A stretch of DNA of 64,000 bases. Source: Gluconobacter frateurii. GTDB taxonomy: Bacteria; Pseudomonadota; Alphaproteobacteria; Acetobacterales; Acetobacteraceae. The stretch covers positions 372,001-436,000 of the forward strand of contig NZ_BEWN01000002.1 in the NCBI RefSeq assembly GCF_002723955.1, in the 5' to 3' direction. Under the pieces are notes generated by a model. The model did no database searches, had not been told where the DNA came from, and worked only from the letters and a program-made list of their open reading frames with translations. Positions 37,939-40,690 of this stretch are shown here, one piece after another. Within the stretch, counting starts at the first letter, position 1, and each line of letters opens with the position of its first letter. A program made the position numbers and the translations under genes.

Positions 37939-38015
37939 ACGGAAAAATGGCAAACAACCGGTAAATTCCATGCAGTTCTTGCAATTTATCCATAAGAACG
38001 AAATAAGAACAAGGC

Positions 38016-39248
38016 ATGAAGAAATCTCTGTCTGAACGTCTCGCGATTCTGTCCGATGCAGCGAAGTACGATGCGTCCTGCGCATCAAGCGGCTCAACGC
38101 GCCGGGACTCTGCGAAAACCGGTGGTCTGGGGTCCACAACGGGAAACGGGATCTGTCATGCTTACACACCGGACGGTCGCTGCATTTCGCTTCTCAAGAT
38201 CCTGCTGACCAATTTCTGCGTGTACGACTGCGCCTATTGCATCAACCGTTCCTCTTCGAATGTGGAGCGTGCGCGCTTCACCCCAGACGAAGTGATCTGG
38301 CTGACGCTGGAATTCTATCGGCGTAACTGTATTGAAGGTTTGTTCCTCTCCTCAGGAATTATCCAGTCCTCCGATCACACGATGGAACAGCTTGTTCAGG
38401 TGGCGCGTGATCTGCGGCTGAAGCATGGTTTCCGGGGATATATTCATCTCAAGACCATCCCGGATGCATCCCCCAAACTTCTGGAGGAAGCGGGTCTGTA
38501 CGCGGATCGCCTGTCCATCAATGTCGAAATGCCGACAGAAACGGGCCTCAAGGATTATGCGCCTGAAAAGGATGCAGGTGGCATCCGTCGTGCCATGGGG
38601 GACATGCGCCTCAAGATCGATGCCGCAAAGGAAAAAACGCACACCGGCCGCCGTGCGACACGATTTTCACCGGGCGGTCAGAGCACCCAGATGATTATCG
38701 GCGCCGATGCCGCTACCGATCGGGACGTGTTGGCCAGCAGTTCGGGGCTTTATGGGTCTTACGGATTGCGCCGGGTGTATTATTCGGCGTTCAGTCCCAT
38801 CCCGGATGCGTCCGCCATCCTCCCGGTTCGCAGTCCGCCGCTGCAGCGCGAGCATCGGCTTTATCAGGCTGACTGGTTGTTCCGGTTTTATGGGTTTGAG
38901 TTTGGGGAACTGACGGCGTCACGGCCCGGTGGGATGCTGGATTTGGAGATTGACCCCAAACTTGCATGGGCGCTGGATAATCGTGCGCAGTTTCCCGTGG
39001 ATCTGAACCGGGCGTCCAAGGAAATGCTGCTCCGGGTTCCGGGTCTGGGTGTGAAAACCGTTCAGGCTCTTCTGATGGCGCGGAAGCACAGGGCGATCCG
39101 CCTGGAAGATCTGGGGCGACTGAATGTGTCTATTAAAAAGGTGCGCCCATTTGTGAAGGGGGTGGGATGGAGCCCGGCGCGGCTGACAGATCGGCACGAT
39201 TTGCGGACTTTGTTCCTGCCTGCGCCACAACAGATGAGCCTTCTTTGA
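38016..39248 (+). CDS. Putative DNA modification/repair radical SAM protein
   Basis: The 410-residue protein has a radical SAM cluster motif CVYDCAYC (CX3CX2C) near residue 70, after LLTNF. It then carries FLSSGIIQS and SINVEMPTETGLKDYAPEKD motifs, and a C-terminal helix-hairpin-helix module (DLNRASKEMLLRVPGLGVKTVQALLMAR) that suggests nucleic acid binding. This matches the family described as a putative DNA modification/repair radical SAM protein (TIGR03916). Its stop overlaps the next start by TGATG, and family members are typically found with this partner. Substrate unknown. Confidence 0.88.
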   Translation: MKKSLSERLAILSDAAKYDASCASSGSTRRDSAKTGGLGSTTGNGICHAYTPDGRCISLLKILLTNFCVYDCAYCINRSSSNVERARFTPDEVIWLTLEFYRRNCIEGLFLSSGIIQSSDHTMEQLVQVARDLRLKHGFRGYIHLKTIPDASPKLLEEAGLYADRLSINVEMPTETGLKDYAPEKDAGGIRRAMGDMRLKIDAAKEKTHTGRRATRFSPGGQSTQMIIGADAATDRDVLASSSGLYGSYGLRRVYYSAFSPIPDASAILPVRSPPLQREHRLYQADWLFRFYGFEFGELTASRPGGMLDLEIDPKLAWALDNRAQFPVDLNRASKEMLLRVPGLGVKTVQALLMARKHRAIRLEDLGRLNVSIKKVRPFVKGVGWSPARLTDRHDLRTLFLPAPQQMSLL

Positions 39249-40690
39249 TGTCTGTTGTTATCACTGTGGCAGATACCAGCGCATTCGAGCCCTGGCGCCA
39301 GACTGCGCGCGCCGCCCTGCAGCGTGATGTTCCTCCCGAACAGATTGTCTGGCGTCTGCAAGGAAAGGACGCAGATCTTTTCTCCCGGGCAGAAACGACG
39401 TCTTTTGCTGGGGAGATCAGGCGGGACGTCAGATTGAAAGCCGCCAATCTGCCTGTTCTGAAAGATGTTCTGTGTCATTCCAGCCCGGAGCGGTTTGCCT
39501 TGGCGTATCGCCTGCTCTGGCGTCTGCAGGATGATCCGGATCTTCTGTCCATCCCCACAGATCCGGATGTTGGTCAGGCACGGCGCATGGTGCAGCAGGT
39601 TCGCCGGGCAGCACACAAAATGACCGCCTTCGTGCGCTTCCGGGAGCAGGACGCAGCAGAAAATGGCCGGCGCCGCTTCCTGTCATGGTTTGAGCCGGAT
39701 CATCATGTCCTGGAGAAAGTCTCGTCCTTTTTTGCCAAGCGTTTCGCTGACATGGATTGGCTTATCCTGACGCCGCGAGGCTCCATAAGTTGGGATGGCG
39801 CCACGCTGAACTGCTCATTCACGCCGTGTGAAAAGCAGGCCCTTGAGGATGATGTCGAACGTCTGTGGCAGACTTATTATGCTTCGACCTTCAATCCGGC
39901 CCGGGTTCGCACAAAAGCCATGCGCAATGAGATGCCGCGCCGCTACTGGAAGAACCTGCCGGAAGCCGCCCTGATTCCTCAGCTTGTCGCAGAAGCTGAA
40001 AAACGCGTTGCGGAAATGGCCGCGAGGGAAGCGTTACCCGCGCCGAAATTCCATCAGGCCATTCAGGCCAGGCAGCGAGCCATCACCGTTCAGGAGCATG
40101 CTCCTGATGGAATGACGGAGCTCGCACAGGATATTCGCGCCTGCCGGGCCTGTTCTTTGCAGTGTCACGCGACACAGGCGATTGTGGGAGAAGGGCCGGA
40201 AACGGCAAAGGTGATGATCGTCGGGGAGCAGCCGGGAGATCAGGAAGATCTGGCGGGTCGTCCATTTGTGGGGCCTGCCGGACAGCTTTTAATGGGATGT
40301 TTGGAAGAAGTCGGCGTCGCCCGCGAGGCTCTTTACCTGACGAACGCCGTCAAGCATTTCCGTTTTACAACCAATGGCCGACGACGCATTCACCAAACGC
40401 CCGGTGTCGAGCATATTTCGGCCTGTCAGCCATGGCTGAAACGGGAAATTGCCTTGGTGAAGCCGAGACTGATTGTCTCATTGGGGGCAACGGCTCTACG
40501 GGCGATAAGTGGTCCGTCAGAGCGGTTGAAAGACGTCCGTGGCACGTTGCGTGCCCGTGAGGGTGAGGGCTGGGCGCATCTCAGCCTGGCTCATCCGTCT
40601 TGGATTCTCCGTCTCGGGCCAACGGACCAGGCGGAGCGGGAACGTCAGGCCCTGATTGCCGGGCTGAGGCAGATCAAGGGTGTTCTCTGA
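39248..40690 (+). CDS. DUF4130-UdgX fusion (SAM-linked DNA metabolism protein with uracil-DNA glycosylase domain)
   Basis: The 480-residue protein joins two parts. Residues about 1-245 form the DUF4130/TIGR03915-type domain (ERFALAYRLLWRL, VRRAAHKMTAFVRFRE, SWFEPDHHVLEKV, YWKNLPEA). Residues about 275-475 form a uracil-DNA glycosylase of the UdgX type: ACRACSLQCHATQ with iron-sulphur-like cysteines, IVGEQPGDQEDLAGRPFVGPAGQLL, and the R-loop RRRIHQTP with His382. In UdgX the equivalent histidine forms a covalent bond to the deoxyribose after uracil removal. Start ATG 39248 is coupled to the radical SAM gene. Confidence 0.88.
   Translation: MSVVITVADTSAFEPWRQTARAALQRDVPPEQIVWRLQGKDADLFSRAETTSFAGEIRRDVRLKAANLPVLKDVLCHSSPERFALAYRLLWRLQDDPDLLSIPTDPDVGQARRMVQQVRRAAHKMTAFVRFREQDAAENGRRRFLSWFEPDHHVLEKVSSFFAKRFADMDWLILTPRGSISWDGATLNCSFTPCEKQALEDDVERLWQTYYASTFNPARVRTKAMRNEMPRRYWKNLPEAALIPQLVAEAEKRVAEMAAREALPAPKFHQAIQARQRAITVQEHAPDGMTELAQDIRACRACSLQCHATQAIVGEGPETAKVMIVGEQPGDQEDLAGRPFVGPAGQLLMGCLEEVGVAREALYLTNAVKHFRFTTNGRRRIHQTPGVEHISACQPWLKREIALVKPRLIVSLGATALRAISGPSERLKDVRGTLRAREGEGWAHLSLAHPSWILRLGPTDQAERERQALIAGLRQIKGVL

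Follow-up and report, generated by a model that had tools for sequence, protein, structure and literature searches.

A radical SAM and DUF4130 gene pair with an optional UdgX domain, predicted LexA control and a clamp-type tail in Gluconobacter frateurii

What might a radical S-adenosylmethionine (SAM) enzyme do beside a uracil-DNA glycosylase (UDG) of the cross-linking UdgX type? The question is raised by a two-gene operon of Gluconobacter frateurii, located in a window of 64,000 nucleotides (the whole stretch of DNA analysed; contig NZ_BEWN01000002.1 of assembly GCF_002723955.1, positions 372,001 to 436,000). All window coordinates below refer to its + strand. Both reading frames were confirmed, the first encoding a radical SAM protein of 410 residues (38016..39248) and the second a 480-residue fusion of DUF4130 with UdgX (39248..40690, ATG start at 39248). 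The gene pair is already catalogued, three families being tied together by name in NCBIfam: TIGR03916 ('rSAM_link_UDG'), TIGR03915 ('SAM_7_link_chp') and TIGR03914 ('UDG_fam_dom'). The window operon is a full member of this set, passing all cut-offs, and the family names mention neither a clamp tail nor a reaction. A preliminary description had taken radical chemistry plus a suicide UdgX to be the unit, acting in repair or DNA marking; the LexA box and the clamp-type tail described here are additions to it.

We propose, with moderate confidence, that the operon encodes an SOS-induced complex that processes DNA lesions at the replication clamp and carries an optional covalent uracil-excising domain. 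In this model, LexA would keep the operon off until DNA damage occurs, and the radical SAM protein would be tethered to DnaN by its terminal QMSLL peptide and to DNA by a helix-hairpin-helix region. Together with DUF4130, it may apply a SAM-derived radical to a damaged or non-standard nucleotide, possibly at stalled forks, in gaps or behind a translesion polymerase. Where present, UdgX would, as judged from its family, excise uracil and cap the abasic site covalently via His382. With clamp tail, LexA boxes and a constant core set apart from an optional UdgX, the function of this catalogued gene set becomes testable. The pair may also give a physiological setting to UdgX, which in the papers listed on it figures mostly in structural work or as a tool for the laboratory.

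LexA boxes and the C-terminal tail

The box GAACGAAATAAGAAC (37996..38010, + strand) ends five bases 5' of the radical SAM start codon and is of the alphaproteobacterial GTTCN7GTTC type, equivalently GAACN7GAAC (motif type from PMC8565304, cited, like the other papers below, from an excerpt). Taken alone it is not significant, with three boxes in the window against 2.13 expected. The window's genome contains 142 GAACN7GAAC sites, compared with 52 for a reversed control pattern, and 10 of 14 inspected sites, picked by eye mostly for A/T-rich spacers, lie inside longer frames; the motif alone is therefore insufficient, and its conservation is decisive. GAACN7GAAC occurs between -150 and +15 at 118 of 130 alphaproteobacterial loci, a set that includes the window's own copy and some near-copies, nine non-alphaproteobacterial loci and the lexA locus L031 having been set aside. 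The controls gave 0 of 390 in-gene windows, 4 of 453 windows further upstream and 0 to 5 of 130 for other spacings. Among ten proteobacterial loci outside the Alphaproteobacteria, GAACN7GAAC was found at none and the E. coli-type CTGTN8ACAG at seven, and the latter precedes none of the 130 alphaproteobacterial loci (box types of other lineages are those that we take to be characteristic of them). Such a switch of operator type with the proteobacterial lineage would be hard to obtain without LexA control. Further afield, the Clostridia operon L144 is preceded by two GAACN4GTTC boxes, and upstream of the remaining Bacteroidota, Bacillota and Fusobacteriota loci the exact box types searched for yielded only two far-off GGAN5TCC matches (L149 at -209, L152 at -223). 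Within the window's genome, one GAACN7GAAC site precedes the lexA match by 81 bases, and a second stands about 2.2 kb in front of the dnaE2 match, where the gene beside the box reads like imuA. LexA probably represses the operon until DNA damage occurs, induction being predicted from the observed boxes.

SOS control of the pair is already in print for several lineages. We take COG4277 to be the TIGR03916 radical SAM family. PMC8565304 describes a Bacteroidetes COG1573-COG4277 operon under SOS control as a putative system of base excision repair, with citations of work on Verrucomicrobia and Caulobacter; this is likewise a two-gene operon of UDG type under LexA, and neither radical chemistry nor a clamp tail is discussed in the excerpt. 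LexA control of Clostridium CAC3343-CAC3344 is inferred in PMC3828012. An Acinetobacter gene bearing the family name is upregulated at 8% humidity (PMC13130816), and the gene is listed in a table row of PMC9611098.

Two other GTTCN7GTTC boxes of the window's genome (G000) adjoin genes of different kinds. At L162 (G000:C2:29100-32100), a cytosine DNA methyltransferase-like frame starts 107 bases from a box with an all-T spacer, and at L159 (G000:C1:354300-357300), a RarA ATPase-like frame begins 33 bases from its box.

The radical SAM protein ends in ...APQQMSLL, its last five residues (406-410; 39231..39245) forming a peptide of the QMSLL/QLxLF type, which we take to be the bacterial beta-clamp-binding motif. 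E. coli MutS carries the identical QMSLL peptide. The pattern Q[LMF]x[LM][FLIW] falls within the final 12 residues in 125 of 147 radical SAM proteins (the contig-truncated L142 being left out). Among 1,998 background frames, called mechanically and spanning 150 codons or more, two show it. A looser pattern fits 143 of the 147 proteins. After reduction to 71 representatives at 80% identity (a set that omits L141, L142, L145 and L149), 55 retain the motif and all have Q..[LMF] within the last 14 residues. QL-type peptides also occur in or near the tail at 11 of 11 distant loci (L143-L145 and L148-L155, five of them also counted among the 147; a looser reading by eye), in the forms QLSLF, QLSIF, QLSFF, QLKLF, QLSLW, QLSLGF, QLLLDF, QLILPF and QLILEF. 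In the structural model, residues 405-410 have a predicted local distance difference test (pLDDT) score below 50, as expected of a tail peptide. The conserved motif suggests that QMSLL docks the radical SAM protein on the DnaN clamp. A literature search, with most subscription papers outside it, found no description of a clamp motif in the TIGR03916 family.

A constant core and an optional UdgX

The functional unit is radical SAM plus DUF4130 rather than the pairing of radical chemistry with a suicide UdgX that had been put forward at first. TIGR03916 and TIGR03915 exceed their cut-offs in the identical 41 of 100 genomes of the family; in nine further family genomes TIGR03915 matches more weakly, which brings its total to 50 of 100, and in all nine an over-cut-off UdgX match lies directly beside it. 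Across the phylum, TIGR03916 exceeds its cut-off in 31 of 200 genomes. A DUF4130 partner was found with the window query at 143 of 147 loci. Of the remaining four, L149 yielded its partner to a Clostridia query, L113 ends at its contig, and no partner was found at L141, where only 0.8 kb is left, or at L145, the most distant locus (36-37% identity). UdgX is fused in 116 loci, 13 of which stop before the gene does, and 22 loci whose second gene is complete lack it; it is also missing from 4 of 4 Bacteroidota/Bacillota loci with an annotated partner gene. On a 123-row tree, a quick one with one long branch, the presence and absence of UdgX require 14 changes, at least 9 of them on starred branches.

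UdgX also occurs away from the pair. By manual count, 21 of 56 over-cut-off UdgX matches lie apart from over-cut-off TIGR03915 matches. Twelve of these 21 proteins were sampled, nine from genomes without any TIGR03916 match and three from pair-bearing genomes, including the window's own; the frame of L186 in this set may be over-long. No LexA box was found within 300 bases upstream at the 12 loci. Their UdgX residues E327, Q328, N366, H382 and H449 are kept in 12 of 12. In the DUF4130 part, R120, K124, F128, N216 and M229 persist in none, E149 and E239 in one each and R130 in two, while R82 (12/12), W16 (11/12), R17 (10/12) and W171 (9/12) persist; 17 linked controls keep the residues lost from the unlinked proteins in 16 to 17 cases. 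This selective decay beside an intact UdgX site indicates that much of DUF4130 is constrained when a radical SAM gene adjoins, and that UdgX has an independent life. DUF4130 is well predicted in the model except for residues ~200-240, and the same stretch is mostly lost in the unlinked proteins; both would be explained if it folded against the radical SAM protein.

The same loci bear on the proposal that the radical SAM enzyme frees UdgX from its covalent DNA adduct. Gene proximity is all that speaks for such a resolver. The 12 UdgX proteins at loci without a radical SAM gene, nine of them in TIGR03916-free genomes, and the many radical SAM/DUF4130 pairs that have no UdgX make it very improbable, and it was rejected.

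The second UdgX of the window's genome, L175 (G000:C4:100075-100668), is a frame of 423 residues with a decayed DUF4130, a radical SAM gene not being adjacent nor a LexA box nearby. L175-like proteins precede a similar frame of ~720-750 residues in several of the 12 sampled loci. Inserted frames are also seen within the pair itself: a hemerythrin-type-like frame separates the radical SAM gene from the DUF4130 gene at L044 (2805-3282, turned locus) and L132 (6481-6958), and two small toxin-antitoxin-like frames lie between the two genes on the opposite strand at L026 (2809-3573).

The two proteins and their possible chemistry

The domain assignments of the preliminary description hold, the helix-hairpin-helix tail more weakly than the rest, and the profile and fold scores of the operon proteins are too large for chance. 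The radical SAM protein passes the curated threshold of TIGR03916 (552.5 bits, cut-off 343.5) and also matches Pfam Radical_SAM. Its CX3CX2C cysteines C68, C72 and C75 (38217..38240) are invariant in 146 of 146 aligned rows, which include the window's own copy twice. Upstream of them (38079..38183), C47, H48 and C56 are kept in all 146 rows and C22 in 145 (one gap); C22, C47 and C56 are plausible but unproven ligands of an auxiliary iron-sulfur (Fe-S) cluster. The helix-hairpin-helix region predicted near the C-terminus (38982..39155) is supported but weak, with Pfam HHH_3 at 21.8 bits (cut-off 27) and ComEA/RuvA chains of the PDB at E 0.009-0.08. The model (pLDDT 76.4) has a core nearest to LipA/HydE/BioB structures among the chains compared (Z 14.7-16.6).

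Among known enzymes, the photoproduct lyase SplB also belongs to the radical SAM type and has been tied to DNA repair and SOS (PMC8565304). PMC3765255 groups DUF4130 with 'SplB-like radical SAM photolyases' and predicts for it a mutagenesis-related enzymatic role in the company of 'SplB-like' radical SAM proteins and UDGs. Reversal of ultraviolet (UV) photoproducts by an enzyme resembling spore photoproduct lyase, with UdgX as an accessory, would account for the radical SAM domain, the DNA-binding region and the SOS box. Unlike SplB, the window protein has a helix-hairpin-helix tail, extra cysteines and a DUF4130 partner. No photoproduct-lyase family is among its listed NCBIfam matches or in the fold lists of the model, which name LipA, HydE, BioB and MiaB among others, though absence from such lists does not itself speak against a lyase. 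The pair was also found in Bacteroides, Parabacteroides and Pusillibacter. These are gut anaerobes living in the dark, which argues against a UV-only role; UV-only repair was rejected on this ground, and a lyase of this kind in general appears unlikely.

The two genes meet in a TGATG stop-start overlap (39246..39250), a probable sign of translational coupling. The second protein matches TIGR03915 over residues 12-240 (39281..39967; 209.5 bits, cut-off 112.25), its gene adjoining the radical SAM gene, and TIGR03914 over residues 242-475 (39971..40672; 283.4 bits, cut-off 189.95). In the model of the fusion protein (pLDDT 90.2), the UdgX part superposes on crystal UdgX (6l6s_A) with Z 30.7 and a root-mean-square deviation of 1.6 Å over 200 residues at 43% identity. 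It contains motif A GEQPG with Gln (326), the R-loop (K/R)RRIH (378) and HPS (449), as these motifs are defined in PMC10359453. It remains below the cut-offs of family 4 UDGs (TIGR00758, 120.2 against 125.3; NF040953, 125.2 against 250). The R-loop RRRIH (40379..40393) includes His382, with its codon at 40391-40393. Of 117 aligned fusion rows, taken from 116 loci and from the window (counted again as L001), 115 have His in this column. By alignment His382 is equivalent to H109 of Mycobacterium smegmatis UdgX (PMC10359453), and by this analogy it probably forms the covalent cross-link at uracil DNA. M. smegmatis UdgX shares the R-loop His, GEQPG and HPS; its crystal structure is of the UDG domain alone, whereas the UdgX of the window shares a chain with DUF4130, and its gene is coupled to that of a radical SAM protein. 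The DUF4130 profile gave no match in the PDB up to E 10.

SRAP/HMCES (YedK) likewise caps abasic sites covalently. It is unrelated to the operon proteins by any match, and UdgX itself makes the abasic site from uracil. An SOS context for SRAP is given in PMC3765255.

The UdgX domain varies in one respect. In 17 of 117 fusion rows, cysteines taken to be Fe-S cluster ligands are missing, with E327, Q328, N366, H382 and H449 kept in these rows. Examples are L009, L014, L052 and L075, in which the cross-linking His and its Glu partner are kept. The UdgX domains of L075, L077, L085 and L092 also have no His at 370, and that of L128 is degenerate.

These rows bear on a two-step hand-over, in which radical SAM/DUF4130 would turn a lesion, such as a pyrimidine that has been oxidised or alkylated, into uracil or something equivalent that UdgX then removes. 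The fusion of DUF4130 to UdgX fits such a scheme, as does the retention of UdgX active-site residues in the rows that lost Fe-S ligands. However, many pairs do without UdgX (22 of 123 tree rows and all four annotated Bacteroidota/Bacillota loci), and we give the hand-over a low probability. For the preferred SOS-induced complex at the clamp, the likeliest chemistry would be that a base lesion blocking replication is directly reversed or converted, which is a guess and is offered tentatively. In its fullest form, possible though doubtful, a clamp-riding, SOS-induced radical SAM enzyme with DUF4130 as lesion reader or co-catalyst would carry out a new direct reversal of base lesions at blocked forks, where UdgX, an optional component, would covalently cap abasic sites arising there. 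If true, this would put a radical SAM enzyme at the replisome and give the cross-linking glycosylase a role in the cell's physiology.

Gene neighbourhood and distribution

An imuB-like gene lies within 5 kb of the pair in 10 of 80 named loci, nine upstream on the same strand and one on the opposite strand, and dnaE2 lies directly 3' of the DUF4130-UdgX gene in four of the 80, all Sphingomonadales. The dnaE2 of L105 is an error-prone polymerase of NF004225 (1385.5 bits), the sole dnaE2 checked by family. The imuB-like gene of L105 has a weak polymerase IV match and those of L131 and L140 have none, so the label 'imuB' is a reading by eye. ImuB associates with the clamp. The ImuA-ImuB-DnaE2 mutasome resembles the pair in its SOS control and, in the four loci, by position; in contrast, the pair does not encode polymerases and is not adjacent to these genes in the window's genome.

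Of the two roles in the preliminary description, repair gains support from the lineage-matched LexA boxes and from the few imuB-like and dnaE2 neighbours, whereas DNA marking does not. For a DNA-marking or anti-phage system one could cite the words 'modification/repair' in the NCBIfam name and the finding of the radical SAM gene in 158 of 72,556 plasmid records. However, no family of the PADLOC anti-phage models matched up to E 0.1, no restriction or methylase gene was recognised among the 14 neighbour clusters listed, and the LexA-box control and conserved clamp tail point elsewhere. With no PADLOC model matched, marking or defence was rejected, and we regard it as a most improbable function.

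Several points weigh against the SOS-induced complex at the clamp. No exact box is present at 12 of the 130 alphaproteobacterial loci or at 3 of the 10 others. The tail peptide of L145 and L149 is not terminal, and the frame of L150 continues for ~40 residues; a short clamp motif could be kept for another reason, and the tail counts compare relatives that are not independent with mechanically called frames. The imuB-like and dnaE2 neighbours are a minority, and the window operon is beside neither, the DnaE2-like match being on another contig (C3:396668-399742). Model residues 20-46, which hold or adjoin two of the extra cysteines, are poorly predicted, leaving the auxiliary cluster unproven. 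When the complete second protein was used in fold searches, matches to the UDG part took up the lists, and the DUF4130 fold was not separable from it. Clamp binding, induction and enzymatic activity are predictions from sequence, as are radical chemistry on DNA and covalent capping.

The gene set is present in several phyla. In the window, the operon is flanked by a divergent flagellin-like gene and by genes that look like efflux genes, which are uninformative on function. At L105, L121, L131 and L140, the pair is followed directly by dnaE2 and preceded by an imuB-like gene. Two viral contigs hold relatives, one full-length and one cut off, and the same two appeared in both scans. In the phage collection ten records match, two of them the 240-kb Acinetobacter contigs CAKLQF020000004.1 and CAKLQH020000003.1; one 240-kb 'Acinetobacter phage' contig (L148) is probably chromosomal, because its neighbours are bacterial and include glyS and glyQ.

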